Assembly (NCBI GenBank): GCA_017557425.1
Contig: JAFYYU010000008.1
Location: 1-38,273, forward strand
Direction of reading: 5' to 3'
Length of the DNA stretch: 38,273 nucleotides
Source of the DNA: Muribaculaceae bacterium
Lineage (GTDB): Bacteria; Bacteroidota; Bacteroidia; Bacteroidales; Muribaculaceae
The notes below the pieces were generated by a model. That model saw nothing but the letters and a program-made list of their open reading frames with translations. It was not told the origin of the DNA and searched no databases. Below, one piece after another: positions 10,629-33,526 of this stretch. A program made the translations under genes and the position numbers. The number at the start of each line of letters is the position of its first letter. Position 1 is the stretch's first letter.

Positions 10629-10660
10629 TTTGCAGGAATGGCGACAAACTATTATCTTTG
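10629..10660 (+). promoter_or_regulatory. Consensus promoter of the large C10 peptidase gene
   Basis: TTTG at 10629-10632 and TATCTTTG at 10653-10660 with a 20-base spacer. Transcription would begin near 10667, giving an AT-rich leader of about 80 bases and excluding the upstream in-frame ATG at 10638. Confidence 0.8.
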
Positions 10661-10748
10661 TGGCGCTGTTAAATCTAATTTATTAGAATACATCTTATTA
10701 AATACAATAACCTTAATAAACATTAATTACTACTTAAACTTAATGCTT

Positions 10749-13700
10749 ATGAAGAAATTTTTATTTTTTCTGTCTGCCATAATTATGGCAATGTCATTGT
10801 CGGCTGCACCTGTCGATCAGTTTACAGCCGCTAGAAAAGCACAGAGTTTCTTAACCAATGAGCTGTATGCAGGTAAAATCATGTCACCTGCAGCAGTCAC
10901 ACCTGTGCTGCTCAAGGCAGAGATGGGCATTTCAAAGCTTAACCAGCCCGTCTATTACATCTACAACACCGCCACTACATTCATCGTAGTTGCCGGTGAT
11001 GACCGCGCTGTTGACATCCTCATGGTGGGCGACCGTCCCCTGAGAGACGTGAACAACCTGCCCGGTGGTATGCAGGACATGCTCGGACAGTACAAGGACC
11101 AGATCATGTTCCTCCAGGAGCACCCGGGCCTGCGTCCTACGAGCGTAGAAGAGCCCTCTGCACCGATGCTCAATGCTACCACCTATGGCCCGCTGCTGAC
11201 TTGCAACTGGGACCAGGAAGCACCCTACTACAACCAGTGTAAGTTCAGCAACTATCAGTGTCTGACTGGCTGCCCCGCAACATCGGCTTCGATGGTGTTC
11301 TACTTCTGGAAGTATCCCACTGGTGAAACGGGTGTTGTACCCGGCTACAAGTCAACCATCAGTATATCGAACTACAGCTCGAAGAGCTATACCCACTCGG
11401 CACTGCCCTCGACCACATTTGACTGGGCCAACATGCTTGACAGCTACACCGGCAGCTACACTACCGCCCAGGGTACTGCTGTTGCCACGTTGATGCACTA
11501 TGTAGGACAGGCCGAGCGCATGGGCTATGGTGTTAACGGTAGTGGTGTGAGTGTGGACAGCGTCTGCAACATCCGTGACGCGTTCCTCCGTTTTGGCTAT
11601 GACTCAAGCACCACCCGCTTCGTGAAGAAGACCAGCGCCTACAGCGGTGGCAGCACGCTCTACAGTGACTCACAATGGGCTTCCATGATTCAAGAGGAGA
11701 TGGCCGCAGGCCGTCCCATCGTCTTCTGTGCCGTTAGCTCCAGTGCTGGTGGCCACGCCTTCAACGTTGACGGTTACAACAGCAGCACCAACAAGTACCA
11801 CATCAACTTCGGTTGGAGTGGCGAGGGTAACGCTTGGTGCGCACTGAACTCCTTCGGCTACAGCAGCTACAACTTCAACGTTTATCAGCAGATGGTAATC
11901 GGTATCCAGCCGCCCAGCGGCAGCTCCGCTACTCCCACGCTGACCGTTAGCCCCACCTCGCTGTCATTCAGCGCTACTGCAGGTGAGACCGTGAGCAAGA
12001 CCTTCACCGTTACCGGTACCAACCTCACCGGCAATGTAACCCTGACCAAGACCGATGCAAACGGTGTTTATACCATTTCGCCCTCGACCATCACTGCCAG
12101 CGCTGCAGCCAGCGGTGCCACCGTTACCGTGACCTACAAGCCCACTGCAGCCGGCACCCACACGGGCAGCATCGCCATTGCCAGCAGCGGTGCAACGAGC
12201 AAGACCGTTTCGCTCTCGGGTACTGCAAGTGCAGCCGCCCTCACGACCTATACTCCCGTGATGAGCGCCGCCAACAGCAGCTACATCACCACGTCGAGCT
12301 TCCGCGCCGACTGGACCGACCAGACCGCAAGCGCTAACGTATCGAGCTACACCCTCCAAGTGAACGGCCAGGGTTCGACCCCGTCGAACGAGGTTACTCT
12401 GCTGGGTACCATCAACGGCAGCAACTACACCGGCAGCTACACCAACATCACGCTGACTGCTCCTTGGGGCGGCTCCAACGTGAGGGGTGGTAACAACGCT
12501 GTTTACACCAAGAACTCGTCGGGTACCGGTAACATCACGTTCACTGTACCCTCGGGTTACACCAATGCCACCTTCAGCGTACAGATCACGACTGTATCCG
12601 GCACCTATGGCACGGGTAACATCACCGTGAAGTCGGCCAGCACATCAGCACTGGGCCACACCTTCTCAAAGGGCGAGACCTACACCTGGATTGTAACTGC
12701 CAGCTCAGGCGACAAGATCACCATCTACTCGACCGACAGCAGCTACTCACCCGATATGTCGCTGATTAAGGTATATGCAGGCAACATCAACCTCAATGCC
12801 AGCGAGACCGGCGACGCCAATGCCCGTACCATCACCGGCATCACCAACAAGTATTACACCGTTAGCAACCTGACGGCAGGTGCCACCTATACTTATAAGG
12901 TAAAGGCCCTCTACACCGATGGTACTTCTAGTGCTTGGAGTAATGAGCAGAGCGTTACCCTCAACGAGGAGCAGCAGACCGCTACCCCGACCCTGACGGT
13001 AACTCCCACCAGCCTGAGCATGAGTGCTAAGGTAGGTGCCACCAAGACCGCTACCTTCAAGGTAACTGGTGCCGACCTGACCGGCAACGTAACGCTCAGC
13101 CTGAGCGGTGCCAGCGTCTTCAGCATCTCGACGACCAGCATCACGGCAGCCAATGCCGCTAACGGCGTGAACGTGACTGTGACTTATGCTCCCACTGCTT
13201 ATGGCACGCAGACGGCTACCGTAACTGTTGCCAGCTCGGGTGCTACCAGCAAGACCGTTGCCCTGACCGGTAACGCTACCCTGGACAAGGCAGATCCCGT
13301 CCTGAATGCTGCCACCAACATCAGCAGCACCGGCTTCACGGCTAATTGGACCCACGATGTTGATGCATCGAGCGTATCGAGCTACTCGTTGTATGCTACA
13401 CGCACCGCCGTGCCCGACGATGATGAGCCCACCGGCTCCACCCTGCTTGGCAGCCTCGACGGCAGCAACTACACCGGCAGCTACGCCAGCATCACGCTGA
13501 CCTCGCCTTGGGGCGGTTCTAACGTGAAGGCAGGTAATGGAGCTATCTACACCAAGAACTCTACATCATGGTGGGGCTCTTCTTCGACCCGCGGCTACAT
13601 TACTTACACGATTCCTTCGGGCTACAGCAATGCCACCTTCACTGTCCAGATCACTACCGCCAGCACCAGCTACGGCAGTGGTAACATCACAGTGATGTCG

Positions 13701-14213
13701 ACCAAGACTTCGGCTGTTGGTCATAGCTTCTCAAAGGGCGAAACCTACACTTGGACGGTAACCGGTAGCGCCGGCGACGTGATCAAGCTCTACTCGACCG
13801 ACAGTAGCTACTCGCCCGACATGACAATGATCGCCATCTATGCAGGCACGTTGAACCTCAACGCTAGTGTCAGCGGCGACCAGGCCGAGTTTGTAGTCAC
13901 CGACATCGATGCCGGCACAACGGGCATCACCCTGAGCAACCTCACTGAGGGTGCCACCTACTCCTACTACCTTGTTGCCAACTATGTTGACGGCACCACC
14001 GCAACCAGCAACACTCAGGAGGTAACCCTTGTCACCGTTAACTTGGGCAACAATACCGCCATCAACGCTATCGCCGCTGACGTCGACGAGGTTGAGTCGG
14101 TAACCTACGTTAACATGTCCGGTGTTCAGAGCAAGCAGCCTTGGGATGGCGTTAACATTGTGGTTACCCGTTACAAGAACGGCACGATGAAGAGCACCAA
14201 GGTTCGTTATTAA
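10749..14213 (+). CDS. Secreted C10 (streptopain-type) cysteine peptidase with duplicated beta-sandwich modules and a sorting-like tail
   Basis: 1154 residues from the ATG at 10749 (10743 is possible). A signal peptide (about 1-20) precedes a SpeB-like propeptide (about 20-140, with VVAGDDRAVDILMVG). The catalytic domain (about 145-388) has the nucleophile in LTGCPATSASMVFYFW (Cys about 175) and the histidine in GGHAFNVDG (His about 336), with INFGWSGEGN after it. Two tandem modules of about 350 residues follow (11931-12980 and 12984-14037). Each has a beta-sandwich starting TPTLTV and an FnIII-like domain interrupted by another beta domain. The C-terminus has YVNMSGVQSK then DGVNIVVTRYKNGT, resembling a type IX sorting signal. 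Relatives such as interpain and streptopain degrade host proteins. It has no dockerin, unlike the two paralogues downstream. Confidence 0.88.
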   Translation: MKKFLFFLSAIIMAMSLSAAPVDQFTAARKAQSFLTNELYAGKIMSPAAVTPVLLKAEMGISKLNQPVYYIYNTATTFIVVAGDDRAVDILMVGDRPLRDVNNLPGGMQDMLGQYKDQIMFLQEHPGLRPTSVEEPSAPMLNATTYGPLLTCNWDQEAPYYNQCKFSNYQCLTGCPATSASMVFYFWKYPTGETGVVPGYKSTISISNYSSKSYTHSALPSTTFDWANMLDSYTGSYTTAQGTAVATLMHYVGQAERMGYGVNGSGVSVDSVCNIRDAFLRFGYDSSTTRFVKKTSAYSGGSTLYSDSQWASMIQEEMAAGRPIVFCAVSSSAGGHAFNVDGYNSSTNKYHINFGWSGEGNAWCALNSFGYSSYNFNVYQQMVIGIQPPSGSSATPTLTVSPTSLSFSATAGETVSKTFTVTGTNLTGNVTLTKTDANGVYTISPSTITASAAASGATVTVTYKPTAAGTHTGSIAIASSGATSKTVSLSGTASAAALTTYTPVMSAANSSYITTSSFRADWTDQTASANVSSYTLQVNGQGSTPSNEVTLLGTINGSNYTGSYTNITLTAPWGGSNVRGGNNAVYTKNSSGTGNITFTVPSGYTNATFSVQITTVSGTYGTGNITVKSASTSALGHTFSKGETYTWIVTASSGDKITIYSTDSSYSPDMSLIKVYAGNINLNASETGDANARTITGITNKYYTVSNLTAGATYTYKVKALYTDGTSSAWSNEQSVTLNEEQQTATPTLTVTPTSLSMSAKVGATKTATFKVTGADLTGNVTLSLSGASVFSISTTSITAANAANGVNVTVTYAPTAYGTQTATVTVASSGATSKTVALTGNATLDKADPVLNAATNISSTGFTANWTHDVDASSVSSYSLYATRTAVPDDDEPTGSTLLGSLDGSNYTGSYASITLTSPWGGSNVKAGNGAIYTKNSTSWWGSSSTRGYITYTIPSGYSNATFTVQITTASTSYGSGNITVMSTKTSAVGHSFSKGETYTWTVTGSAGDVIKLYSTDSSYSPDMTMIAIYAGTLNLNASVSGDQAEFVVTDIDAGTTGITLSNLTEGATYSYYLVANYVDGTTATSNTQEVTLVTVNLGNNTAINAIAADVDEVESVTYVNMSGVQSKQPWDGVNIVVTRYKNGTMKSTKVRY
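11931..12980 (+). repeat. Internal module, copy 1
   Basis: About 1050 bases coding for a beta-sandwich (TPTLTVSPTSLSFSA onward), an FnIII-like half, an inserted beta domain (GSNYTGSYTNITLT to KVYAGNINLNA) and the closing FnIII half. It is repeated at 12984-14037 with long near-identical DNA stretches around 12415-12490 and 13458-13530. Confidence 0.75.
12984..14037 (+). repeat. Internal module, copy 2
   Basis: Second copy of the module at 11931-12980, starting TPTLTVTPTSLSMSA. The inserted beta domain is best conserved (GSNYTGSYASITLT, SFSKGETYTW, YSTDSSYSPDM). The closing FnIII half is more diverged than in copy 1. Confidence 0.75.
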
Positions 14214-14406: not shown

Positions 14407-15018
14407 ATGGATACAAGAGAACGTATTGTGAACGAATGCAGCCAGATGCTCATGAGCGTGGGGCCTACATCCATGACCATGGACGACGTAGCACGCGCCT
14501 GCGGCATCTCTAAGCGTACACTTTATGAGACATTCCCTGACAAGCGCACACTCATCGGCGAGTGTATCCACCATGAACACGAGCTCAAGAATGCGGCGCT
14601 GAAAGAGATTTTCAATACATCGTCGAACTGCTTCGAGGCGATGTACAGGGTGTATCAGCGCGCACGCAAGATGTATGAGGCGACATCAGTGGCCTTTTTC
14701 AACGATATCAAGCGCCTGTACCCCGATATTTTTGAAAAACATATCGAAAACGAGAAGACCGTGATCAACGGTATCGCATCGGTACTGCGCCAAGCCCAGG
14801 ACGAAGGCTTGGTCATCAAGCGCATCAATCCCGAGATTGCCGCCTACCTGTTCTCCCAGTCCCTGCGTGCACTGCATGAGAACTCCAACGGCGCCAAATA
14901 CGGCTTCAAAGATGAGGACATGTTTGACCATGTATTCATCAGCTTCCTGCGCGGCGTGGCAACCATCAAGGGCATCGAGATGATTGAGTATCTCGAACAA
15001 CAACAGCAAAATCAATAA
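14407..15018 (+). CDS. TetR/AcrR family transcriptional regulator of the efflux operon
   Basis: A 203-residue DNA-binding protein. The N-terminal TetR domain is clear: RERIVNECSQMLMSVGPTSM, then the helix-turn-helix TMDDVARACGISKRTLYETF (about 23-42) and PDKRTLIGECI. The rest is an all-helical ligand-binding and dimer domain that varies between members. It is the first gene of a collinear set encoding a TolC-type channel, adaptor and RND pump, starting only 14 bases before the channel gene. A palindrome overlapping its own promoter suggests that it represses itself and the pump until a ligand binds. The ligand cannot be inferred. Confidence 0.92.
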   Translation: MDTRERIVNECSQMLMSVGPTSMTMDDVARACGISKRTLYETFPDKRTLIGECIHHEHELKNAALKEIFNTSSNCFEAMYRVYQRARKMYEATSVAFFNDIKRLYPDIFEKHIENEKTVINGIASVLRQAQDEGLVIKRINPEIAAYLFSQSLRALHENSNGAKYGFKDEDMFDHVFISFLRGVATIKGIEMIEYLEQQQQNQ

Positions 15019-15032
15019 AACTACACGATACA

Positions 15033-16370: not shown

Positions 16371-16374
16371 CAAA

Positions 16375-16406
16375 CTAGACTGTCTAGATGATCTAGAAAT
16401 TCTAGA
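16375..16406. repeat. Four CTAGA repeats with an exact 9-bp period
   Basis: CTAGA occurs at 16375, 16384, 16393 and 16402, just after the stop of the channel gene. Three of the four lie within TCTAGA palindromes. The rest of each unit varies, so the regular spacing looks non-random. Confidence 0.75.
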
Positions 16407-16445
16407 AAAACAAGAAAACTAACAACAAACAATATAATCACTACA

Positions 16446-17459: not shown

Positions 17460-17471
17460 CCGTCATCAGTC

Positions 17472-20400: not shown

Positions 20401-20591
20401 GTATGGTGCCCATGGCTGTGGGTACCGGTGTGGGTAGTGAGATGTGGCGCCCGATGGGTATCGCCGTTATCGGCGGTCTGGCCATGTCCACGCTGATGAC
20501 CCTGCTGTTCGTTCCCACGATGTACACCATCTTCGCCCTGACCGGAATCCGCCGCACCCGCAAGAAAATTGGCAAGGAGCACGCTAAATAG
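17472..20591 (+). CDS. RND family efflux permease (AcrB/HAE1-like)
   Basis: A 1039-residue inner-membrane pump with the standard twelve-helix, two large periplasmic loop layout. The first helix begins KRPVTTILIFVAIIVLG, and the porter domain starts SLPIDLFPDVETNTI. The proton-relay aspartates are present in IGMVVDDAIVVLENV (Asp 400 and 401), and the matching lysine is in GIVVKNGIVLIDY near residue 935. These residues favour a drug/hydrophobe exporter rather than a non-transporting homologue. It would assemble with the adaptor and channel encoded just upstream and be controlled by the TetR protein. Substrates cannot be predicted; bile acids, dyes or antibiotics are typical for the class. Confidence 0.95.
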   Translation: MSLYSSSVKRPVTTILIFVAIIVLGLFSLRSLPIDLFPDVETNTIMVMTSYAGTSASDIEQNVTRPLENSLNSVEHLKHITSNSRENISIVTLEFEYGYDIEALTNDVRDKLDMVSSMLPDDANTPIIFKFSSDMIPIVLLSVQAGQSMPGLYKILDENVANPLARVDGVGSVSIAGAPKREVHVYLDPLRMEAYNLSVETVASLIGAENRNIPGGTFDIGNETYPLRVQGEFSDPQQMGAMVVGMSPSGGVVHLRDVARIDDSLEERAQESYNNGQKGAMIIVQKQSGANSVQISTKIAEELPKIQKNLPSDIKLGYIVDTSDNIRSTIASLVETVLFALLFVGIVVFVFLGRWRATVIVLVTIPISLIASFIYLYATGNSLNIVSLSALSIAIGMVVDDAIVVLENVTTHIERGSAPMQAAVNGTNEVALSVMASTLTLIAVFFPLTLVKGMTGVLFKQLGWMVTIMMVLSLICALMLTPMLCSRLLRLNVGETKIFQKVYRPILKVLDKIDDFYAKVLDKCVAHRWITAATALGIFVFSIFLMKFVGTEFFPTNDNGRLGVSLELPIGSRVDLAKDVSQRLYKEWTEKYPEIQSFNYTVGQASSDNTYASMQSNGSHIISMNIMLSKSNERKRGITEIAGSMREDLKHYPELKRAMVNVGGGRGGGMSGQNTLSYEIYGYDFSKTDSVAQRLKRILEKVPGAADINISRSDYQPEYHVDFDREKLALYGLNLSTAATALRNRINGTTASYFREDGMEYDIKVMYDPEHRRSISDIENIMLYNAMGTGVRLKEVGTVTEQFYPPTIERKDRERIITVSTVVQDRAMSEVIADAQPLIDKMDKPGDVFIELSGSYEDQQDSFRDLAVLGLLIILLVYIVMASQFESFTYPGIIMTSIMFAFSGIVLILLLTRTNLNIMSMIGAIMLIGIVVKNGIVLIDYINLNRERGMSIRRAVINGGHSRLRPVLMTSLTTILGMVPMAVGTGVGSEMWRPMGIAVIGGLAMSTLMTLLFVPTMYTIFALTGIRRTRKKIGKEHAK

Positions 20592-23160: not shown

Positions 23161-25551
23161 ATGAGAAAGTTACTTTTCCTTACCGCCCTACTGCTCGCGG
23201 CATCGTCGGCCATGGCCGGCAATGTTGATTTATCAACTGCCCAGACCAAGGCTGCCAACTTCTTGCGTGCCAAGGCCACCCAAGGCCGCCTAATGACCTC
23301 GACCCCCACTGTAAAGTGGACCCATGAAGTGAAGAACTCGAGCAATATCGCTCTTACCACTCTTTACATCGTCAATACCGACAAGGGTTACGCCATTGTT
23401 GCCGGCGACGACCGTGCCAAGGAGGTTCTTGCCTATGGCGAAGGGTGCCTCGAGAGCATAAATGACCTGCCCGAAGCTGTTCACTATTTCTTGGACATCT
23501 ATCAGAAACAGCTGGAATACCTCCAGGCCCATCCTGGAATGATGCCCCAAAAACTCACTGCGAACCGTGGCATCAGCGTTGAACCCCTGTTGCAGACTGC
23601 ATGGAACCAGGGCAAGCCTTACAACATGAAGACCCCGCGCAAGGGTTCTGGTTCAGACCCCTATTGCAGGGTGGGTTGTGCGGCTGTAGCTCTGACTCAA
23701 GTGATGAACTTCTGGAAATATCCCGTTTCCTCGCCTGCCCTGCCCGGCTACACAACCGAGACCATGGGCTATGTGATGGATCCGCTTCCTGAGTACACCT
23801 TTGACTATGAACACCTGCTGAACACTTACCGCACCAACACCGACCAATACACTGACGTGCAGCTGGATGCCATTGGTTATCTGATGCTCTATACCGGTTA
23901 TGCTATGAACATGGACTATGCCACTAACCAGAGCGGTGCCGAGTATGACGAGATTGAGCAGGCCATCCGCACCTTCAGCTTCGACCCGGGTTTCAGCATT
24001 GAGATGAAGTGGGACTATGATGACGGTACCGTCAACTACACTGAGGAACAGTGGGCTACCTTGATTCAGACTGAGTTGGCAGCTGGTCGCCCCCTGGTTT
24101 ACTGCGCCTTTGACATGTCAAGCGACTCGACAGGTATTGGCGGTCACGCTTTCAACGTGGATGGTTACGATGCCGCCAACGACCTGTATCATGTGAACTT
24201 CGGCATGAGTGCAGATAAGAACACTTACTATGCGCTCAATGCCTTCACCCTGGATAATGGCATGACGGTCTATGACTTCTATCCCTTGCTGTTCGCCGGC
24301 TTGCAGCCCCCCGGCATGACCAACGATCCCCGCATCGGTGTTAACACGTCGAGCCTGAACATGGAATGCTATGTTGGTGAAACGGATACCGCAACCTTCA
24401 ACGTGACAGGTGTCAACCTGATTGACGATATCACCCTGACGCTCACCGACGATAGCGGCGCATTCAGCATTGATGCGACTACCATCAGTAAGGATGATGC
24501 CGGTAATGCCACCGTTACGGTAATCTACGCTCCCCAAGCCGTGGGCAACCATACTGGCAAGATTACCCTGACCAGCACCGACGCCAACGAAGCCACCGTC
24601 ACCCTCCATGGAACTGCTACCAATGCTCCTCTCGTGGTCTATGACCCCGTGATGCTGCCCGCTGACAGCGCGCATATCGCACTGACCTCGTTCCGTGCCG
24701 ACTGGACCGACCAGACTGCTGCCGAGAACGTGGTAAGTTACACCCTGCAAGTGAACGAGAAGCCAACCAGCGGCCTCATCGCCGAGGCTGACTGGAGCAA
24801 TGTTCCCTCGTCGGGTTATGCCAATAGCTACTTGCCTGAGGGCTGGGAAGTTGGTCCCTATAACATCTATTGTGAGGGTGGCTGCATCTCGATTACCAGC
24901 GACAGTTATATCAGGACCAATACACTTGACCTGACTGGCTTTGACAAGGTTACAGTAGTTTTCAAGGCTAAAAACTACTACACTTGGACCAATTCCGCGC
25001 TTACGGTACAAACCAGTGTTGACGAGAAATATTTCCAGCTCACCAACGACTGGCAGGAGTACACGGTTGTCTTGAATTGCGCATCAAGTGACCAAGTCAC
25101 TTTCTTCGCAAACACTTACTACCCCCAGCTCCAGTGGGTTAAGATCTATGCCGGCGAATATGAGGCTCCGCAGCTGCGCGCCACCGAGGAAGGTAATCAG
25201 ACCTATCGCTTGATTACCGGTATCACCGACAAGTTCTACACCGTGAACAATCTGCTCGCTGAGGGCACCTTCCTCTACAAAGTGAAGGCCATCTATACCG
25301 ACGGCACTGAGAGTGCTTGGAGCAACACGCAGATGGTGACCCTGTTTGATAACGGTCCCGCACCTCACGAGTTTGCTATTGGTGACGTGAACCATGACAA
25401 GTCTGTCAACATCGCCGACGTCACCACGCTCATCGACTACCTCTTGGGTAGCGGCGACGTCTGCCTGATTTGCGCCGATGTCAATCAAGACCAGGCTATC
25501 AACATTGCCGATGTGACCGCACTTATCGACGTGCTCTTGACAGGCCACTAA
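23161..25551 (+). CDS. Secreted C10 cysteine peptidase with C-terminal dockerin (first dockerin paralogue)
   Basis: A 796-residue protein. A signal peptide (about 1-19, ending SSAMAG) is followed by a propeptide with IVAGDDRAKEVLAYG and a C10 catalytic domain. The nucleophile is in CRVGCAAVALTQVMNFW (Cys 173) and the histidine in IGGHAFNVDGY (His 329). After the histidine the usual GWG-type loop reads HVNFGMSADKN, so the conserved tryptophan is methionine 349, which may alter activity. Next come a beta-sandwich (from about 393), an FnIII-like domain (FRADWTDQTAAENV, about 522) interrupted by a jelly-roll-like insert, and a dockerin (about 740-794) with repeats GDVNHDKSVNIADV and ADVNQDQAINIADV. 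No sorting tail follows the dockerin. Confidence 0.87.
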   Translation: MRKLLFLTALLLAASSAMAGNVDLSTAQTKAANFLRAKATQGRLMTSTPTVKWTHEVKNSSNIALTTLYIVNTDKGYAIVAGDDRAKEVLAYGEGCLESINDLPEAVHYFLDIYQKQLEYLQAHPGMMPQKLTANRGISVEPLLQTAWNQGKPYNMKTPRKGSGSDPYCRVGCAAVALTQVMNFWKYPVSSPALPGYTTETMGYVMDPLPEYTFDYEHLLNTYRTNTDQYTDVQLDAIGYLMLYTGYAMNMDYATNQSGAEYDEIEQAIRTFSFDPGFSIEMKWDYDDGTVNYTEEQWATLIQTELAAGRPLVYCAFDMSSDSTGIGGHAFNVDGYDAANDLYHVNFGMSADKNTYYALNAFTLDNGMTVYDFYPLLFAGLQPPGMTNDPRIGVNTSSLNMECYVGETDTATFNVTGVNLIDDITLTLTDDSGAFSIDATTISKDDAGNATVTVIYAPQAVGNHTGKITLTSTDANEATVTLHGTATNAPLVVYDPVMLPADSAHIALTSFRADWTDQTAAENVVSYTLQVNEKPTSGLIAEADWSNVPSSGYANSYLPEGWEVGPYNIYCEGGCISITSDSYIRTNTLDLTGFDKVTVVFKAKNYYTWTNSALTVQTSVDEKYFQLTNDWQEYTVVLNCASSDQVTFFANTYYPQLQWVKIYAGEYEAPQLRATEEGNQTYRLITGITDKFYTVNNLLAEGTFLYKVKAIYTDGTESAWSNTQMVTLFDNGPAPHEFAIGDVNHDKSVNIADVTTLIDYLLGSGDVCLICADVNQDQAINIADVTALIDVLLTGH

Positions 25552-25576
25552 TTTTGCCGATAATCGCCACTAGTTT

Positions 25577-25617
25577 AAAGGCTCCATGCGATCGAGTAAG
25601 TCGCTGGAGCCTTTTTT
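25577..25617 (+). terminator. Intrinsic terminator after the first dockerin peptidase
   Basis: AAAGGCTCCA (25577-25586) pairs with TGGAGCCTTT (25605-25614) and the T-run continues to 25617. Confidence 0.88.
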
Positions 25618-25757
25618 CAAGCCCGAGGGGTCGGTAGACCTGTTGCTAAGCGCTCATTAATAGCCTTTTAGCGCCCATTACAAGGAACGGCGATTTTGTT
25701 GATTTTCACATTATGGCCGTTTTTTGTTGTGTATTATTGCTAAATGATGTGAAAAAA

Positions 25758-25790
25758 TTTGTTGTTAACATCAAAAAAAGTGTAATTTTG
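25758..25790 (+). promoter_or_regulatory. Promoter of the second dockerin peptidase gene
   Basis: TTTG at 25758-25761 and TAATTTTG at 25783-25790 with a 21-base spacer. The predicted leader is about 115 bases and AT-rich. Confidence 0.7.
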
Positions 25791-25912
25791 CAATCCTTTT
25801 ACTGAAGCCGATTTTAGTGAAGGTGGCACCCAAAGTGTAATCACATTAACTGCTGAAGCGAATATTCGTATAATTAACAATATAACAATCATTTAAACTA
25901 ACCAAATCATTT

Positions 25913-28330
25913 ATGAGAAGAATCTTACTGTGTGCCGCAGTACTTTTTGCGGCAATCGGGCTTACGGCTGCTCCTGTTGACATGAGGACGGCTCAAACCA
26001 AAGCCCAAAACTTTGTACAGCAAAAATTGTATGGTGGAAAACTAAGGGCTCCTATCAGCGGGGAGATGAAATTGGCACATGCCGAGATGAACTCTCAGAT
26101 GATGGACCGTGCCGTTTACTATATTTTCAACAGTCAAAATGGATTTGTGATTGTTTCGGGTGATGACCGTGCCGAGGAAATCTTGGGCTACGGTGACCGT
26201 CCCCTTGACATCAATAATATTCCCTGCAACATGAAGGCTTGGTTGGGCACTTACAAGGAGCAGATCGAGTACTTGCAGGCTCATCAAGGCTTACAGGTCG
26301 AGACCCCTTCGATGATGGCGCCGACATTGCGCACGGCATCGGTTGAGCCCCTGCTGACCGCCAAATGGGACCAGGAGTCGCCCTATTGGAACCAGTGCAA
26401 ATTCAATAACACCCAGTGCCTGACGGGCTGCCCTGCCACCTCAGCATCGATGGTGTTCTATTACTGGAGATATCCCGACTATCCGACCCCTGAGGTGCCC
26501 GCTTACCGGTTCAGCATGTCGCAGGGTTGGAGCGGTTCCACTACGGTAAACGTGCCTGCATTGCCCTCGGTTACCTTTGACTGGAACAACATGCGCGACA
26601 CTTACACCAGCGGCAGCTACAACACCACTGAGGCCAATGCCGTGGCAACACTGATGCGCTATGTCGGCCAGGCCGAGCACATGGAATATGGCTCAGACGG
26701 CAGCGGTATTGACGCCGACAGCGTTATCCTCATCGTTAATGCGTTCAAGCTCTTCGGTTATGACGAGGAGACCGTGCGCATGGTCAAGAAGACCAGCTCC
26801 TACAGCGGAGGCCAGACGCTCTACACCGATGCAGAGTGGGCTGCCATCATGCAAGAGGAACTGAGCGAGGGCCGTCCCATAGTTTTCTGCGCCGTCGCAG
26901 GTGGCTGGTTCGGTGGTGGCCATGCCTTCAATGTCGATGGCTATGATTCCAACACCAACAAGTACCACATCAACTGGGGTTGGAGCGGGCAATACAACAA
27001 CTACTTCGCTATCAACGCCTTCAATGGCGGCGGTTCTACCTACAACCAGTACCAGCAGATGGTTATCGGTATTCAGCCTCCCATCAAGATGCCGCGCCTC
27101 AAAGCCGACAAGAACGAATTATCGTTTGAGTGCTTCAAGAACCATACTGCTTCCGGCAAGTTCACTATCACCGGCCGCAATCTGGAAGACTATGTGACTA
27201 TCACGCTCAATGATGAGAACGGTGTGTTCAGCATCGATCAAAGTGGTGTTACTCCCGACGAGGACGACAGGGTACAGCAGGAAATCAACGTCACCTATGC
27301 CCCCCAGACTGAGGGTGATTATACTGCCACTATCGTGCTCAGCACTCGTGGTACCGATGACTTTGTCATCACGCTGCACGGCTCATCAGATTACGAGCTG
27401 TATCGTCCCTATATGCTGCCGCCGAACGAAGAGGCTATCACCTCTACCTCGTTCCTTGCCGAGTGGGCCGATGAGACTCCCGCCGAGAACGTTGTCAGCT
27501 ACACGCTGCAAGTGCAATCCAAACCCGATGTGATTCTGCTCACCGAGGGCGATTGGAGCGAAGTTCCCCAAGACAATACCAACCATGCAGCCGACGCAGC
27601 CGACTATATGCCTGAGGGCTGGACATTCCAGGGTGACAAGCTCTTCCTGGACGGCGGTTTCCTTTCACCGGGCCGCAACTCGATCATCAAGGTCAATACC
27701 GACTATGCCGGCTACAGCAAAGTGAGCGTTATCATCAAAGCCAAAGCCTATACCAAGGGCAGCAACACTACCCTGACGGTAGCTTCAAGCCTCGGTTCAG
27801 AAACCTTAATACTTGCCAAGGAAGTCGATACCTATCTCGTCGTTCTCGAATTGGGCGACCATGACTTTGTTCAATTCAATACAGGCTATTATCCTGAGAT
27901 TCAAAGCATCAAGATTTATGGCGGCGAGATCACCGATCCTGAGCCCTTCTCTCTGAGGGATGCCAACGTGACCGGCGATGCCACTTCGATGTTGATCGAG
28001 GGCATTACCCCCGACAAGTTCTACACCGTGACCGGTCTGCTACCCGCCACTTCTTACCTGTATCGCGTGAAATCCTTCTATGTGAACGGTACCGAGAGCT
28101 TGTGGAGCGGCTACAAGGAAGTGCTGCTCAAGGAAGGTGGCGAAAGCATGCAGGGCGACGTAAACAATGACGGCAAGGTAAGCATCGATGACGTGACGAT
28201 GCTTATCGACTACCTGCTTGCCGGTTCCGGCGACATCAATATGACAAATGCCGACATTGACGGCAACGGAACTGTCAGCATCGATGACGTGACCTCACTT
28301 ATCGACTACTTACTCAGCGGAAACTGGTAA
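25913..28330 (+). CDS. Secreted C10 cysteine peptidase with C-terminal dockerin (second dockerin paralogue)
   Basis: An 805-residue protein. It has a signal peptide (about 1-20), a propeptide with IVSGDDRAEEILGYGDRP, and a C10 catalytic domain with Cys 173 in LTGCPATSASMVFYYW and His 337 in GGGHAFNVDGYD. The intact loop INWGWSGQYN holds the tryptophan lost in the neighbour at 23161. A beta-sandwich (from about 392) and an FnIII-like domain (FLAEWADETPAENV) follow, the latter split by an inserted domain containing YMPEGWTFQGDKLFLDGG. The dockerin (about 746-802) has GDVNNDGKVSIDDV and ADIDGNGTVSIDDV, both with a good calcium-ligand pattern. The catalytic domain is closer to that of the 10749 peptidase, whereas the tail resembles that of the 23161 peptidase. 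It is a single-gene unit with its own promoter and terminator. Confidence 0.88.
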   Translation: MRRILLCAAVLFAAIGLTAAPVDMRTAQTKAQNFVQQKLYGGKLRAPISGEMKLAHAEMNSQMMDRAVYYIFNSQNGFVIVSGDDRAEEILGYGDRPLDINNIPCNMKAWLGTYKEQIEYLQAHQGLQVETPSMMAPTLRTASVEPLLTAKWDQESPYWNQCKFNNTQCLTGCPATSASMVFYYWRYPDYPTPEVPAYRFSMSQGWSGSTTVNVPALPSVTFDWNNMRDTYTSGSYNTTEANAVATLMRYVGQAEHMEYGSDGSGIDADSVILIVNAFKLFGYDEETVRMVKKTSSYSGGQTLYTDAEWAAIMQEELSEGRPIVFCAVAGGWFGGGHAFNVDGYDSNTNKYHINWGWSGQYNNYFAINAFNGGGSTYNQYQQMVIGIQPPIKMPRLKADKNELSFECFKNHTASGKFTITGRNLEDYVTITLNDENGVFSIDQSGVTPDEDDRVQQEINVTYAPQTEGDYTATIVLSTRGTDDFVITLHGSSDYELYRPYMLPPNEEAITSTSFLAEWADETPAENVVSYTLQVQSKPDVILLTEGDWSEVPQDNTNHAADAADYMPEGWTFQGDKLFLDGGFLSPGRNSIIKVNTDYAGYSKVSVIIKAKAYTKGSNTTLTVASSLGSETLILAKEVDTYLVVLELGDHDFVQFNTGYYPEIQSIKIYGGEITDPEPFSLRDANVTGDATSMLIEGITPDKFYTVTGLLPATSYLYRVKSFYVNGTESLWSGYKEVLLKEGGESMQGDVNNDGKVSIDDVTMLIDYLLAGSGDINMTNADIDGNGTVSIDDVTSLIDYLLSGNW

Positions 28331-28349
28331 TCCGTTGATTCACAAAACT

Positions 28350-28389
28350 AAAGGGCTGGCATGCATGAGGTGCGCCAGCCCTTTGTTTT
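28350..28389 (+). terminator. Intrinsic terminator after the second dockerin peptidase
   Basis: AAAGGGCTGGC (28350-28360) pairs with GCCAGCCCTTT (28374-28384), followed by GTTTT. Confidence 0.9.
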
Positions 28390-28445
28390 AGTCTGGATAA
28401 AAAACTAAAAATCGTTAAAACATAGTGTGGGCAACGAAATTTGTG

Positions 28446-28453
28446 TACATTTG
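28446..28453 (+). promoter_or_regulatory. -7 box of the first leucine-rich-repeat gene
   Basis: TACATTTG matches TAnnTTTG, 35 bases before the start codon. No clear -33 TTTG is visible. Confidence 0.5.
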
Positions 28454-28488
28454 CAGGTTAATAATAGAAACCAAGACTAGAAAACGAT

Positions 28489-30600
28489 ATGCGCAATTTG
28501 TTTTTCACGCTGCTCTTGGCAGCCTTGACCAGCCTGGGCGTGAACGCCTTGACCGTCAATAACACCGCGGGCGGACTGTCACAACGCGTTAGCGACACTC
28601 AGATCACCCAGTTAAAGGTCACCGGCACGATGGATGCCCGTGACTTCCTGTTCATCACCGAACAGCTTAACGAACTGACGGTCGTTGACCTTAGCCAGGT
28701 AACAATTGTTTCCTATAATGGCGGTAGAGCCCTGTATGGCACGATTACCTCTTATGCCGAGGGAGAAGTGCCCCGCACGGCATTCTTCGGCAAAAAGTTG
28801 ACCAGTGTCACCCTTCCTGCCGGCATCCAGTCGATCGGATTTGCCGCCTTTGCCGGCTGTGACCGCCTGCAGAGTGTCACGCTGCCGGCATCGCTGGTTT
28901 ATCTGGCCGATTATGCCTTTGCCGGTTGTGGTCTGATCAGCATCAATCTGTCATCATCTATTCTCGACATGGGAAAGGGTGTATTTTCCCGTTGCGAGTC
29001 GATGACGAGTGCAGTCATCAACGCCAGGAGCGTGGGAGACTTCGCTTTTCTGGGCAACACGGCGCTGAGCAATGTGAGCCTGGGTGCTAATGTACAATAC
29101 ATCATGCGCGGAGCCTTCAACGGATGTAATTCCCTGAAAGGCATCACTATCGATCCCGCCACGCACCTGTATCGCATCGACGAGGAAGCGTTCATCAACT
29201 CTGGTTTGGAGAACATCGACATCAAGGCGATGGCTGTGGGCACCGTTGGTGACTGGGCTTTTGCACAAACCAAGTTGTCGAGCATGGACCTGAGCGACGG
29301 CATGACCAATCTGGGTGTCGGAGCTTTAGCCCACAACCCGCTGCTCACTACGGTGACTTTGCCTGGTGTTGGCCACGACAACACTGATAACGGACGCGGC
29401 AATGGCAACCCCGGGGGACGCCGTGGCGTTGCCGCTGCTCCTGTGCACACACTGGAGGCCATTAAGGACTATACCTTTGCAGGCGATGCGCTGCTCAATG
29501 CAGGCGACCTGCTAAAGAAGGATGTCACCACTATCGGCAACTACGCCTTCTACAACGTGAGTGCCAACATTGACACCATGCGCTTGCCCGAGACTATCGT
29601 TTATCTGGGCGACTATGCCATGGCCGGCATGACGGGCATGAAGGTGCTCAAGACCGATGCAACGACCGTTCCCGAGCTGGGCGAAAATGTGTGGGCCGGC
29701 GTGAACCAGCCCGCTGTGCCCCTGATTGCCCCCGATGACGAAAGCACCGAACTGTATAAAGCGGCCGACCAGTGGATGAACTTTTTCTTCCAGGGCGAGG
29801 ACGATTTCCTGTTGGGTGACGTGAACGAAGACGGCGCGGTCAACATCGCCGATGTCACTTCGCTCATCGACTACCTGCTGGGCAGTGGCAATAACATCAA
29901 TCTCAGGAACGCTGATGTCAACCAGGATGGCGCCATCAACATTGCCGACGTGACGGCACTCATCGACCTGTTGCTCGGCGGCAGCAAGAGCAAGCTGTTA
30001 CACCAGATCGGCGATCAGCTGACCGCTAAGTTCCCCAAAACGAATGACTATCTGTCGATGAGCGGCTTGACACTGCGTCCCGGTGAAACGGCTACCGTTG
30101 ATGTGGCTCTCAACAACGATGATAACTACATTGCCATGCAATGCGAGCTCGTACTGCCGCAGGGCGTGAAACTCGTGAGCGTTGACGGCATCGAGCGTGG
30201 CAGCAAGCACTCCAACTACAACACCAGGCACGATGTTGAAACCAACGTTTACACGCTGATAAATGTCTCGACGAGCCTCGACAGCTATGCCGGCCATGAG
30301 GGCAAGATGATGCGCCTGACTGTTGCCGCCGACGAGACCTTCAATGGAGGCGTTGCCGAGTTGAGGTTGGCCAACGTAACGCTCATCACCGAGAATCATG
30401 CGATTGTCCTTGCCAGCGATGCTGTAGCTGATGTCAACAACGGTACCGGCATCAACCAGATTACTGCAACGAAGGAAGTTGCAGCTGTCCGCTACATCAA
30501 CATTGCCGGTCAGGAGAGCGACACCCCGTTCGAGGGCGTCAATATCGTGGTGACCACCTATACTGACGGCACCTCGACGACCGCCAAGGTTATCAAGTAA
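28489..30600 (+). CDS. BspA-like leucine-rich-repeat surface protein with dockerin, cohesin-like domain and sorting-like tail
   Basis: A 703-residue protein. A signal peptide (about 1-20) precedes LRR_5/BspA-type repeats (about 60-400) with the recurring pattern seen in LTSVTLPAGIQSIGFAAFAG and LQSVTLPASLVYLADYAFAG. A Gly/Asn/Arg-rich stretch (about 296-314) interrupts the repeats. A type I dockerin follows (about 442-497) with GDVNEDGAVNIADV and ADVNQDGAINIADV. Residues about 505-650 form a beta-sandwich (MSGLTLRPGETATVDVALNN, then MQCELVLPQGVKLVSV) that resembles a cohesin or related fold. The C-terminus, YINIAGQESD followed by EGVNIVVTTYTDGT, is close to the tail of the 10749 peptidase. 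BspA-like proteins are surface adhesins. The cohesin call is a pattern reading and needs structure comparison. Confidence 0.83.
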   Translation: MRNLFFTLLLAALTSLGVNALTVNNTAGGLSQRVSDTQITQLKVTGTMDARDFLFITEQLNELTVVDLSQVTIVSYNGGRALYGTITSYAEGEVPRTAFFGKKLTSVTLPAGIQSIGFAAFAGCDRLQSVTLPASLVYLADYAFAGCGLISINLSSSILDMGKGVFSRCESMTSAVINARSVGDFAFLGNTALSNVSLGANVQYIMRGAFNGCNSLKGITIDPATHLYRIDEEAFINSGLENIDIKAMAVGTVGDWAFAQTKLSSMDLSDGMTNLGVGALAHNPLLTTVTLPGVGHDNTDNGRGNGNPGGRRGVAAAPVHTLEAIKDYTFAGDALLNAGDLLKKDVTTIGNYAFYNVSANIDTMRLPETIVYLGDYAMAGMTGMKVLKTDATTVPELGENVWAGVNQPAVPLIAPDDESTELYKAADQWMNFFFQGEDDFLLGDVNEDGAVNIADVTSLIDYLLGSGNNINLRNADVNQDGAINIADVTALIDLLLGGSKSKLLHQIGDQLTAKFPKTNDYLSMSGLTLRPGETATVDVALNNDDNYIAMQCELVLPQGVKLVSVDGIERGSKHSNYNTRHDVETNVYTLINVSTSLDSYAGHEGKMMRLTVAADETFNGGVAELRLANVTLITENHAIVLASDAVADVNNGTGINQITATKEVAAVRYINIAGQESDTPFEGVNIVVTTYTDGTSTTAKVIK

Positions 30601-30624
30601 GAGATAGTAACAGTTTTTTTCACG

Positions 30625-30657
30625 CGCCGCAGTCCTTACGGGTTGCGGCGTTTTTTT
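30625..30657 (+). terminator. Intrinsic terminator after the first leucine-rich-repeat gene
   Basis: CGCCGCA (30625-30631) pairs with TGCGGCG (30644-30650), followed by seven T. Confidence 0.9.
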
Positions 30658-30732
30658 GGCCTCGAACCTACGGTTTTTTCTCTTTAACCAGCATTTTCTA
30701 TGAAAACGATGGGGAATTTCCCGAAAATGCCT

Positions 30733-30740
30733 TATATTTG
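30733..30740 (+). promoter_or_regulatory. -7 box of the second leucine-rich-repeat gene
   Basis: TATATTTG matches TAnnTTTG, 27 bases before the start codon. The -33 element is not clear. It may also serve trmB and the genes after it. Confidence 0.5.
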
Positions 30741-30766
30741 CACGTTTAAAGCTATCATACAAGACT

Positions 30767-32731
30767 ATGCGCAACCGAATCATATTGGCCATAATAGCCG
30801 TGGTGCTGGCCCTGCAATCCCCCGCCCTGGAGGTGCAGAACACGGCAGGCACCCTGTCCACCCGGATCAGCGACCCTAACGTGACATCGTTGACCGTCAC
30901 CGGCACGATGAATGCCGAGGACTTCCATTTCATCTCCGCCACGCTGCACGGGCTCACCGTGATTGACCTGTCGGGCGTGACGGTGACGGCCTGCCGCACG
31001 GCAGAACTCCACTACTGGCAGCAGGACTTTGGCGACGGAGAGTTGCCCGCGGGAACCTTTGGCGGCATGGCGCTGACGAGCGTCAAACTGCCGTCAACCC
31101 TCAAGTACATAGGCAAAGGGGCCTTTGCCGCCTGCCACCAGCTGACCAGCGTGACCATGCCCGCCGAGCTCGACAGCATCGGCGACTATGCCTTTGCCGC
31201 CTGCACGGCACTGGAGACCGTCACGCTGCCCGCCAGCGTCGTGAAAGTGGGCCGCGGCGCCTTCATGCGGTGCACTGCACTGACCACCCTGCAGGTACAG
31301 CAGCCCTCACGTCTGCAACAGATGGACGCCACCGCACTTATGGACTGCCCCGCACTGACGACATTGAAGTTGGGTGATGCGCTGCAGGCCGTCGGCGAGC
31401 GTTCGCTGGCAGGAACAGGCATCCAGCAGCTGGACCTGACCGGCAGCACGAATCTGAACGAGATGGGGGACTGGGTAATGGTAAAAACGCCGGTCACACA
31501 GGCCAAACTGCCGTCGAGCGTCACATCAGTCGGCCGGGGAGCGTTCCTGTACGATACCGCCCTGAATGAAGTCATTCTCGGAGGACAATTACCCCAACTC
31601 AACGACTATATGCTGGCCGGCACAGGGCTCACCGCACTCGACCTGACGGGTGTGAACGCCCTGGGCGACTATGCCCTGTACAACTCCGACCGCTTGTCGG
31701 TGGTCGAGCTGCCTGCCACGGTAACCTGGCTGGGCACGCGTTCCATGGCCGGCATGATCGGCATGACCGCCATTACCAGCAATGCCACCGAGGTGCCCGC
31801 CCTGGGCGAGAACGTGTGGCAGGGCGTGAACCAGCCCGCAATCCCCTTAACAGTGCCCACTGGAGCGATAGACAGTTATAAAGAAGCCGAGCAATGGAAA
31901 GAATTCCTGTTCGATTCAGGCTGGCTCATGGGAGACGTGAACCTCGACGGCGAGGTCAACATCGCCGATATCAATGTAATCATCAGGATTATCCAGGGTA
32001 GTGAGTACGATGAGGGCACCATGATGCGCGCCGACGTGAACGGCGACGAAGAGATCAATATCGCCGATATCAACGTGATTATCAGGATTATCCAGACCGG
32101 CAGCGCTTATGCGCCAGCCCACGTCAATGTTAACGACCAGCTGCACCTTGACGATGTAGCCATGCGGCCCGGCGAAGAGCGCACACTGGCAGTCACCCTC
32201 GACAATGCCCAGGACTACAACGCCCTGCAATGCGACATTATCTTGCCTGAAGGTTTGTCGCTGGTAAACAGCAGGGTCGATCGCAATCACACCAGTGAGA
32301 CTTGTGGCCTGGATGAGTCAACCTCCCGCACCGTGCTCTATTCGGCACAGACTACGCACTTCGATGAGGACTGCGCTGTACTTTATATCACTGTGCGGGC
32401 CGATAATGTCCTAGCCCATGACAGCCAAATTCTGCTGAGCAACATCGTTCTTGCCGATGACAATGACGTGGCATGGCATGCCGCAGACTGCACTGCACAG
32501 GTGAAGAACAGCACCGGCATCGAGGACCTGAACGCCATGGCCGACCGCGTGTGGGTCGAGGGCAGCATCTTGTGTATCGACGCGTGCCATGATGGCACCG
32601 CACAAGTAAGCGCCATCAACGGCACCACACGTACGCTCATGCTCACTGCGGGCGTGAACCGTCAAGAACTGGAGGCCGGATTCTATGTGGTCGTCATTAA
32701 CGGCAAGAGCCACAAAATCGCCATCAAATAA
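30767..32731 (+). CDS. BspA-like leucine-rich-repeat surface protein with dockerin, cohesin-like domain and T9SS-type tail
   Basis: A 654-residue paralogue of the 28489 protein, with the same N-terminal block (SLTVTGTMNAEDFHFI). It has a signal peptide (about 1-20), LRR_5 repeats (about 60-365), a dockerin (about 389-443) with GDVNLDGEVNIADI and ADVNGDEEINIADI, and a cohesin-like beta-sandwich (about 459-590: VAMRPGEERTLAVTLDN, LQCDIILPEGLSLVN). Its dockerin helices read INVIIRIIQ rather than the LIDYLL of the other three, so binding preference may differ. The C-terminal part ends with LEAGFYVVVINGKSHKIAIK, typical of a type IX secretion sorting domain. It ends 12 bases before trmB with no terminator, so it probably reads into the housekeeping genes. 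Confidence 0.83.
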   Translation: MRNRIILAIIAVVLALQSPALEVQNTAGTLSTRISDPNVTSLTVTGTMNAEDFHFISATLHGLTVIDLSGVTVTACRTAELHYWQQDFGDGELPAGTFGGMALTSVKLPSTLKYIGKGAFAACHQLTSVTMPAELDSIGDYAFAACTALETVTLPASVVKVGRGAFMRCTALTTLQVQQPSRLQQMDATALMDCPALTTLKLGDALQAVGERSLAGTGIQQLDLTGSTNLNEMGDWVMVKTPVTQAKLPSSVTSVGRGAFLYDTALNEVILGGQLPQLNDYMLAGTGLTALDLTGVNALGDYALYNSDRLSVVELPATVTWLGTRSMAGMIGMTAITSNATEVPALGENVWQGVNQPAIPLTVPTGAIDSYKEAEQWKEFLFDSGWLMGDVNLDGEVNIADINVIIRIIQGSEYDEGTMMRADVNGDEEINIADINVIIRIIQTGSAYAPAHVNVNDQLHLDDVAMRPGEERTLAVTLDNAQDYNALQCDIILPEGLSLVNSRVDRNHTSETCGLDESTSRTVLYSAQTTHFDEDCAVLYITVRADNVLAHDSQILLSNIVLADDNDVAWHAADCTAQVKNSTGIEDLNAMADRVWVEGSILCIDACHDGTAQVSAINGTTRTLMLTAGVNRQELEAGFYVVVINGKSHKIAIK

Positions 32732-32743
32732 AACTGATACAGG

Positions 32744-33526
32744 ATGGGAAAGAACAAACTCAAGAAATTTGCCGACATGGAGCGCATGGCATGTGTGTTC
32801 CAGTTCCCCTCTGCAGTAGTGAAGCAGGAGGGGGGCTGCCCCATGCGCGGCAAGTGGAATGAGGAGTATTTCAAGAACGACAATCCCATCGTGCTGGAAC
32901 TGGGCTGCGGCAAGGGAGAATATGCCGTGGGACTGGCACAGCGTTTTCCCAATAAGAACTACATCGGCGTGGACATCAAGGGCGCCCGCATGTGGACCGG
33001 CGCTAAACTGGCCACCGAACTTGGCTTGCCCAACGTGGCCTTCCTGCGCACCAACATCGAGTTGATTGACTGTATGTTCGCCCCCGATGAGGTGTCCGAA
33101 ATCTGGATCACTTTCCCCGACCCGCAGATGAAAAAGGTGAATAAACGCCTCACTTCGACGCGCTTCCTGGACAATTACCGCAAAATCCTGCGCGATGGCG
33201 GGATCATCCACTTGAAGACCGACAGTCCGTTCCTCTACACCTATACCCACGCGCTGGTCGAGGAGAACCGCTTGCCTGTCGAGACCGACACCGATGACCT
33301 GTATGCCAGCGGCCTTGCCGACGACATCCTGGACATCAAAACGCATTATGAGATGCAGTGGCTGCAACGCGGATTGACCATCAAGTACATCCGCTTTGCC
33401 CTGCCTCACGGCGTGGAACTCGTTGAGCCCGACATCGACATCGAGCCCGACACCTACCGCAGCTACAACCGCGGTTACATCCAGATGCCGCAACTCATGC
33501 AAGAAGAACAAAAAACTAAAGACTAG
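32744..33526 (+). CDS. trmB: tRNA (guanine-46-N7)-methyltransferase
   Basis: A 260-residue cytoplasmic enzyme that methylates G46 in the variable loop of tRNAs using S-adenosylmethionine. The SAM-binding motif is [16 protein letters not shown] (about 50-65), followed by [16 protein letters not shown] (about 73-88). The TrmB-specific [18 protein letters not shown] stretch (about 121-138) and [12 protein letters not shown] (about 157-168) are intact. Bacteroidetes forms often carry an N-terminal extension such as the KKFADMERM seen here. It begins 12 bases after the leucine-rich-repeat gene and ends 2 bases before mrp. Confidence 0.95.

Follow-up and report, generated by a model that had tools for sequence, protein, structure and literature searches.

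What do dockerins do at the ends of proteases in a member of the Bacteroidales? The question is raised by a 38,273-nucleotide contig of a Muribaculaceae bacterium (JAFYYU010000008.1, assembly GCA_017557425.1; this whole stretch is referred to as the window), in which two genes for C10 peptidases ending in type I dockerins are followed by two genes for BspA-type leucine-rich repeat (LRR) proteins that carry a dockerin, a cohesin-like beta-sandwich and a sorting-like C terminus. A first-pass annotation of the sequence had interpreted these four genes as a surface assembly in which the LRR proteins anchor the peptidases. That interpretation was supported in part: it was right in kind and too local in scale. 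The reading that we favor, with a probability of roughly three in four, is that the genes belong to a cellulosome-like, protease-rich cohesin-dockerin system, found in a Bacteroidales genus of the rumen and probably attached to the cell surface via type IX secretion. The four-gene cluster (P1 to P4) comprises the following features.

23161..25551, plus strand: P1, a C10 (streptopain-like) peptidase with a signal-peptide-like start, an I69 inhibitor prodomain, the C10 domain, an Ig-like region and a C-terminal dockerin; no sorting tail
25381..25536, plus strand: type I dockerin of P1, two calcium-loop repeats, ending 4 residues before the C terminus
25913..28330, plus strand: P2, a C10 peptidase with the architecture of P1; Cys, His and NWGW motifs
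28154..28315, plus strand: type I dockerin of P2, C-terminal, two repeats, the stop 4 residues on
28489..30600, plus strand: P3, an LRR protein of the BspA type that carries a dockerin, a cohesin and a sorting-like tail; a likely cohesin anchor
29812..29976, plus strand: dockerin of P3, of the sequence type of most enzyme dockerins in the genome
30046..30441, plus strand: cohesin domain of P3, under the Pfam cut-off, cohesin by predicted structure
30454..30597, plus strand: C-terminal sorting-like tail of P3, from a tail family with 20 places in the genome at E<=1
30767..32731, plus strand: P4, the other LRR protein of the BspA type, with the domains of P3 (dockerin, cohesin, sorting-like tail)
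31931..32092, plus strand: dockerin of P4, of a second sequence type (ADINVIIRII)
32135..32509, plus strand: cohesin domain of P4, assigned by profile
32603..32722, plus strand: weak Por_Secre_tail-like end of P4, 13.0 bits, under the cut-off

All four genes were intact. P1 and P2 matched the C10 profile (PF01640) with 139 and 155.6 bits, respectively; GC and GHAF motifs were present in both, and the third motif was intact in P2 (NWGW) and read NFGM in P1. We take GC, GHAF and NWGW to be the C10 motifs, with the catalytic Cys and His. The dockerins of P1 to P4 scored 30.9 to 47.3 bits against PF00404 (cut-off, 22.9), and the closest solved structures to the P3 dockerin were those of clostridial cellulosomal enzymes (CelS dockerin 2mte, E of 2.1e-10). 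Profile matches confirmed the earlier description of P1 and P2 as secreted-type C10 peptidases that end in a two-repeat type I dockerin and lack a sorting tail, and the domain order given for P3 and P4 (BspA-like repeats, dockerin, beta-sandwich, sorting-like C terminus) was found to be correct.

The sandwich had been read as a cohesin from its letters. It did not reach the PF00963 cut-off of 24.1 bits in P3 (16.5 bits), and P4 gave no match to that family. Searching the PDB by sequence with a cohesin profile returned no cohesin (best E of 0.2, which is chance level), and fold comparison alone found cohesins. The structure prediction that the first-pass annotation had proposed as a check bore its reading out: the P3 sandwich (~130 residues) was modeled with a predicted local distance difference test score (pLDDT) of 95.7, and its best Foldseek and VIA matches were cohesins. 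By its predicted fold, a jelly-roll sandwich, the domain is a cohesin. In a model of the dockerin, cohesin and tail of P3 together (pLDDT of 87.4), the PDB matches fell on the cohesin part. An NCBIfam scan of P3 and P4 gave nothing informative beyond LRR and dockerin fragments.

Elsewhere in the genome of the window (G000; other genomes and loci are likewise given by G and L numbers), a profile of the first five cohesins found seven cohesin places, and a broader profile found eight, of which five were strong, one was moderate and two were weak and partial. Besides P3 and P4, an LRR protein of locus L072 accounts for two of these places and the neighbor of that protein for one; another lies in L149, a protein of 257 residues with no detected dockerin, and the weak partial matches are at L044 and L237. 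The L072 LRR protein (634 residues) has the order LRR-cohesin-dockerin-cohesin-tail and holds the maximum number of cohesins per protein found in this genome (two); this anchor scored 26.3 bits against PF00963 in one scan and 21.7 in another. Its neighbor (223 residues) consists of a cohesin and a dockerin. The cohesin carriers of this genome terminate in a dockerin or a sorting-like tail (L149 judged by eye), and the combination of cohesin and sorting-like tail gives the LRR proteins the appearance of surface-anchored cohesin carriers, as had been proposed. A scaffoldin-like protein was found in a second genome of the genus: L144 of G060 (919 residues) has six cohesins in tandem along with a signal-peptide-like start and a dockerin, and a Pfam scan of it detected no cohesin at E<=0.1. 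The genus also has further cohesin proteins without a detected dockerin besides L149, namely, L147 (G040, 1032 residues) and L248 (G109, 463 residues).

The dockerins were far more numerous. At least 133 matches to Dockerin_1 (PF00404) were present in the genome at E<=10, with 150 of the 209 candidates scored. Chance was considered as the source of such matches and dropped; 9 of 14 control genomes matched at E<=10, and only 2 of them exceeded the cut-off. For a census, 80 stretches around the matches and the window were searched with a profile built from the genome's own dockerins, second copies on overlapping contigs being left out of the fetched stretches. This yielded 122 dockerin open reading frames (ORFs), 121 of which were closed (the ORF of L059, open at a contig end, was excluded). 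The dockerin was C-terminal, with at most 15 residues following, in 99 of the closed ORFs; it lay near the N terminus, with its last residue at position 125 of the open frame or earlier, in 12 and was internal in 10. By a crude rule, a signal-peptide-like start was found in 116 of 120 dockerin ORFs versus 62 of the 228 remaining open frames that span 250 residues or more in the same stretches, a comparison set that includes many nongenes.

A Pfam scan covered 98 of the 99 C-terminal dockerin ORFs (the exception, L075, is a fragment of 53 residues where a contig ends), and Dockerin_1 itself was matched in 96 of them at E<=0.001. The first-pass annotation had expected the enzymes to be proteases, and proteases are indeed the largest recognized enzyme class among the dockerin proteins scanned: matches to Peptidase_C10 (16), S8 (5) and M6 (5) add up to as many as 26, with possible double counting, versus 5 alpha-amylases. 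CotH (7), several LRR proteins, Endonuclease I (2), GHL10 (2) and GH32 (1) were also among the families listed. The 19 other dockerin proteins scanned, with N-terminal or internal dockerins, gave CotH (4), FGE-sulfatase-like (4), GH53, SusD, Cthe_2159, Endonuclease I and other matches. Among the Pfam families listed for the 98 and the 19 proteins there was one GH53 and no GH5, GH9 or GH48; some of the rarest rows (2, 12 and 5 in three scans) stand outside the lists for the C-terminal dockerin proteins. Because the listed families include no cellulase family (GH5, GH9, GH48), we call the system cellulosome-like and not a cellulosome. The twelve proteins with an N-terminal dockerin (L004, L005, L007, L010, L012, L029, L041, L045, L049 and L057) carry it after a signal-peptide-like start and include CotH, GH53, FGE-sulfatase-like, SusD-like and Cthe_2159 proteins and others. 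Odd dockerins, with repeats split far apart or with one repeat, occur in L036 (666-residue ORF) and L063 (184-residue ORF).

The distribution of both domains was surveyed in 119 genomes of the family, seven of them in the genus, with a dockerin threshold of E<=1e-5; the dockerin counts of all seven genus genomes in this survey are lower bounds ("at least"). Cohesins and dockerins occurred together in 22 genomes, cohesins only in 8, dockerins only in 10 and neither in 79 (Fisher P of 3e-10). The same association was seen outside the genus (15, 8, 10 and 79 genomes, respectively; P of 4e-7). Among the 112 nongenus genomes, G001 had 30 dockerin matches, 24 genomes had 1 to 6 and 87 had none. At E<=1e-3, 60 to 122 dockerins were counted in the six other genus genomes and 31 in G001, and cohesin matches numbered 4 to 16 per genus genome (n = 7), weak and partial ones included. 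The named nearest relatives are mostly bins from the rumen or other ruminant guts, labeled Muribaculaceae, Prevotellaceae, Porphyromonadaceae or Bacteroidales.

We compared 117 dockerins of the window's genome with 6 to 10 from each of five others. Mean identity was 0.54 to 0.72 within a genome versus 0.37 to 0.56 between genomes, a difference reached by 0 of 2,000 label shuffles. The columns that distinguish genomes are found in both repeats, where the calcium loops end (NIADVT in the own genome, TGSDVT in G040 and TSADVT in G060). Dockerin positions 10, 11, 17, 18 and 22 are named as specificity determinants in cellulosomes in a published study (PMC5748583). Genome-specific information was higher at these positions than at the rest (mean of 0.83 versus 0.29 bits over shuffled labels; P of 4.9e-5) in a test that used the published position set and was made after the ranked columns were known; position 9 (columns 10 and 43), outside that set, ranks equally high. 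The recognition positions are common to unrelated enzymes of one genome. Paralogue descent contributes to this likeness, yet alone it does not put the differences at cohesin-binding positions. From the fold, the architecture, the co-occurrence and this recognition code, we infer that the dockerins bind the cohesins of their own genome.

The alternative that survives best is that the cohesin and the dockerin of each LRR protein pair with each other, within one chain or between copies, and that the enzyme dockerins bind another target, such as a polysaccharide or a receptor. A dockerin stands beside the cohesin in the relatives of P3 (32 of 33 loci), and both domains are in one ORF in 16 of 29 family loci; furthermore, several genera have cohesin and only one or two dockerins, and the dockerins of G001 come without a detected cohesin. 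All of this would suit self-pairing. However, it would not account for the cohesin proteins of the genus that lack a detected dockerin (L149, L147 and L248) or for the six-cohesin scaffoldin, and it is at odds with the sequence type that the P3 dockerin shares with the enzyme dockerins and with the recognition positions common to unrelated enzymes. Self-pairing as the whole explanation thus appears unlikely, although some pairing within a single LRR protein may occur.

A different role for the dockerin might be read from what it stands in for. The SprA translocon is present (TIGR04189, 2651 bits). The P3 tail represents a separate family within its own genome, and the end of P4 scored 13.0 bits against TIGR04183, under the cut-off. 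A P3-type tail was seen on 18 ORFs of the own genome, and the only 2 with a dockerin in addition are cohesin carriers. Tails of the GIYIVGGKKVIVR type close the LRR-cohesin proteins of G040 and G060, as judged by eye. A family sample of C10 peptidases comprised 30 fetched ORFs, 24 of them closed, with the 6 that run off their locus left uncounted. All 23 closed C10 ORFs outside the genus ended in type IX-like tails (by eye), and the single genus member ended in a dockerin; TIGR04183 matched 15 of the 24 closed tails (E<=0.01). In other genus genomes, 10 of 11 closed C10 ORFs ended in a dockerin by hidden Markov model (HMM) and the eleventh ended in one visible repeat. The one C10 peptidase of G001 that was examined retains a sorting tail. 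Nineteen closed C10-matching ORFs in the own genome divided into 16 with a dockerin end, 1 with a P3-type tail and 2 (L023) with neither by HMM. The C10 dockerins thus occupy the place of the type IX sorting tail of their relatives. The tail-bearing ORF lies in the window itself.

10638..14213, plus strand: third C10 peptidase of the window, 1191 residues, I69 prodomain, P3-type sorting tail, no dockerin

Since this third peptidase bears a tail and no dockerin, both kinds of C terminus coexist side by side. At L023 (G000:C9:157000-163000), four adjacent C10-matching ORFs, two with a dockerin and two without one by HMM, possibly represent decaying copies. A genus-wide loss of type IX tails was tested and is unsupported (median TIGR04183 count of 10 in the genus versus 15; P of 0.11; at most the best 44 matches scored per genome).

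The dockerin could, then, be a secretion or sorting signal that replaces the type IX C-terminal domain and acts without cohesins. Its extreme C-terminal position in 99 of 121 proteins and the tail replacement in C10 peptidases are what such a signal would produce. A C-terminal signal, however, would not be expected to tolerate 12 N-terminal and 10 internal dockerins, the two-repeat calcium-loop sequence is of the cohesin-binding type, and cohesins are present and co-occur with the dockerins. We consider a cohesin-free signal quite unlikely. That the cohesin-fold domains of Bacteroidales are general beta-sandwiches without dockerin binding, their co-occurrence with dockerins being incidental, appears very improbable.

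The local neighborhood was judged from 33 loci found with P3. The LRR-dockerin-cohesin gene was kept in 32 of them, and dockerin-tailed C10 genes lay directly upstream on the same strand in L111 only. A C10-dockerin gene was found on the opposite strand within the fetched flank in L135, L136 and L137, and L113, L129 and L133 hold too little upstream DNA to judge C10 neighbors. A conserved C10-LRR cluster is therefore rejected, and since the C10 neighbors are rarely kept beside the LRR genes, the proximity of P1/P2 to P3/P4 is a poor guide to pairing. The first-pass annotation had taken the clustering to suggest that P3 and P4 anchor P1 and P2 and had looked to related genomes for co-occurrence; this was seen for cohesins and dockerins over the 119 genomes, and the C10-LRR gene cluster was not kept. 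Dedicated anchoring of P1 and P2 by P3 and P4, which the adjacent same-strand genes in the window and L111 would suggest, is hardly credible beside the other testable relatives, which keep the LRR gene without same-strand upstream C10-dockerin genes, and beside the ~120 other dockerin proteins in the genome, most of which have the same motif. In the window (28489-33526) and in 18 of the 33 loci (L111 to L143), the LRR-cohesin pair precedes a TrmB methyltransferase gene (trmB); these relatives are mostly from ruminant guts.

Several observations weigh against the cohesin-dockerin system as we read it. The ratio of dockerins to cohesins in the own genome is ~120 to 8, and with ~120 dockerin proteins genome-wide, many clients would have to share a small number of cohesins. 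G001, from another genus, has 31 dockerins and 0 cohesins by either profile, and 8 cohesin-positive genomes have no dockerin at E<=1e-5. The co-occurrence is weaker than its P value because 16 of 29 family loci with a cohesin ORF hold both domains in one protein and because the genomes are related. Duplication may account for part of the likeness among dockerins of one genome, and for the other genomes the comparison used 40 stretches chosen from the best Pfam scorers. Two C10-matching ORFs at L023 end without an HMM-detected dockerin or tail (one has a degenerate dockerin-like end), and the genus shows no significant drop in TIGR04183 counts, so that tail replacement is not visible genome-wide. 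Finally, the own genome is a bin (2.58 Mb, 85% complete, 4.5% contamination) with overlapping contigs; the six other genus genomes are 95 to 98% complete with ~1% contamination. Identical-score dockerin matches recur on the contig pairs C1/C13, C9/C17, C5/C12 and C11/C19 of G000, with a constant offset over ~31 kb for C9/C17, for which reason the bin seems to contain overlapping contigs.

In the cohesin-dockerin system that we favor, a type I dockerin is the tag of some 120 proteins that appear to be exported, among them C10, S8 and M6 peptidases, CotH proteins, alpha-amylases, nucleases and LRR proteins. The enzymes would cross the inner membrane through their signal peptides, and the cohesin carriers with type IX-like tails would, from what is known of such families, reach the surface and stay there. 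The enzyme dockerins would bind the cohesins of these carriers or those of adaptor or scaffoldin proteins. LRR proteins with their own sorting-like tail, such as P3 and P4, would be the anchors, and small cohesin-dockerin or multi-cohesin-dockerin proteins would be the adaptors or scaffoldins; P1 and P2 would be just two clients among many, with no exclusive partnership with P3 and P4. The complex would probably reside on the cell surface. A more speculative extension, which we put forward tentatively, is that the dockerin might be a piggyback export tag: tail-less dockerin enzymes would bind a carrier (P3 or P4, for example) while still in the periplasm, and both would exit together through the type IX channel SprA, sorted by the tail of the carrier. 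Few carriers would then serve much of the secretome, and type IX sorting signals would be uncoupled from the cargo.

If the predicted binding is true, a rumen Bacteroidales genus would display much of its secretome, proteases foremost, via a cohesin-dockerin layer. This would change the reading of rumen protein breakdown and of tail-based prediction of surface proteins in Bacteroidota, and the genus would be a source of new, possibly orthogonal cohesin-dockerin pairs. The remainder of the window includes an ordinary resistance-nodulation-division efflux operon (14407-20591, plus strand; a TetR-type regulator gene precedes genes for an outer membrane efflux protein and for HlyD-type and AcrB-type proteins) and two nearby NTF2-fold immunity protein genes (PF15631; 5564-6049 and 6402-6959, plus strand).

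In the literature as covered here (titles, the beginnings of abstracts and some passages, with subscription papers and preprints largely outside), we found no comparably large Bacteroidales dockerin set and no dockerins replacing sorting tails; the reports cited below are quoted to the same extent. A rumen gene catalogue calls the role of Bacteroidetes dockerins unclear, with bins that either have no recognizable cohesins or have cohesins too distant to recognize (PMC7260996). Cohesins were reported from certain Bacteroidetes of the camel rumen, alongside Bacteroidetes bins that have 11 dockerins but lack cohesins (PMC6071333), and from one Prevotellaceae bin of the cow rumen, RUG606, with a two-cohesin protein (PMC5830445). 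Another camel survey gives cohesins in Firmicutes_A only (PMC9177762), and a type IX secretion cellulase study identified neither cohesins nor dockerins in its Bacteroidetes genome (PMC5831590). Our data favor the second option of the gene catalogue, cohesins too distant to recognize, for the testing of which a profile, coordinates and a fold are now available.

As in the type IX cargo of Bacteroidota (Por_Secre_tail, TIGR04183), the C10 family is exported, the cohesin carriers have tail-like ends and SprA is present; unlike in that cargo, a dockerin replaces the tail in nearly all enzymes of the set. With cellulosomes such as those of Clostridium thermocellum (CipA) and Ruminococcus flavefaciens (Sca), the system shares type I dockerins on exported enzymes, the cohesin fold, a multi-cohesin protein with a dockerin (in this genus, the six-cohesin protein of G060) and small cohesin-dockerin adaptors, and dockerin variation at positions 10, 11, 17, 18 and 22 is common to clostridial and ruminococcal cellulosomes and to this genus. 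Cellulosome anchors carry SLH domains or sortase motifs. The present system differs in its Bacteroidales host, the type IX-like tails on its anchors, its protease-rich clients and the lack of GH5, GH9 and GH48 among the listed families, and most of its cohesins escape PF00963. LRR, Cthe_2159 and CotH proteins are also among the clients of cellulosomes (PMC7480376, PMC12484212). Peptidases with dockerins are described there as well (an R. flavefaciens cysteine peptidase and a C. thermocellum S8 peptidase with a double dockerin), with proposed surface docking; they are called accessory (PMC12484212), whereas dockerin peptidases are the largest recognized enzyme class here.

Two other ruminococcal systems share certain features. 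Like Ruminococcus albus, this genus has many dockerins and few cohesins, and the enzymes are probably anchored singly and not in large complexes (PMC6118326); it differs from R. albus as described there in its type IX-like tails, its several carriers of cohesins and, in one sampled species, a multi-cohesin protein. The amylosome of Ruminococcus bromii is likewise a noncellulolytic cohesin-dockerin complex (PMC6118326), and some alpha-amylases with dockerins exist here too, but peptidase matches exceed them (up to 26 versus 5 among the 98 proteins scanned). The nearest published parallel is "Candidatus Stygibacter" (Cloacimonadota), in which dockerins occur on glycosidases and on S8 and C25 peptidases, and in which a cohesin scaffoldin has a conserved type IX-type C-terminal domain (PMC8542988). 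Both systems were deduced from bins, both place C-terminal dockerins on exported S8 or gingipain-like peptidases and glycoside hydrolases, and in both the cohesin carrier would be attached to the cell's own surface by a C-terminal domain of the type IX kind. "Ca. Stygibacter" belongs to another phylum, its cohesins and dockerins were found with standard domain tools, and the parts of its report available to us describe one large scaffoldin with carbohydrate-binding domains and few named dockerin enzymes, compared with ~120 here, and do not describe tail replacement. We regard the Bacteroidales genes as part of a probable cohesin-dockerin system, and not a cellulosome, with predicted binding and a predicted place on the cell surface.

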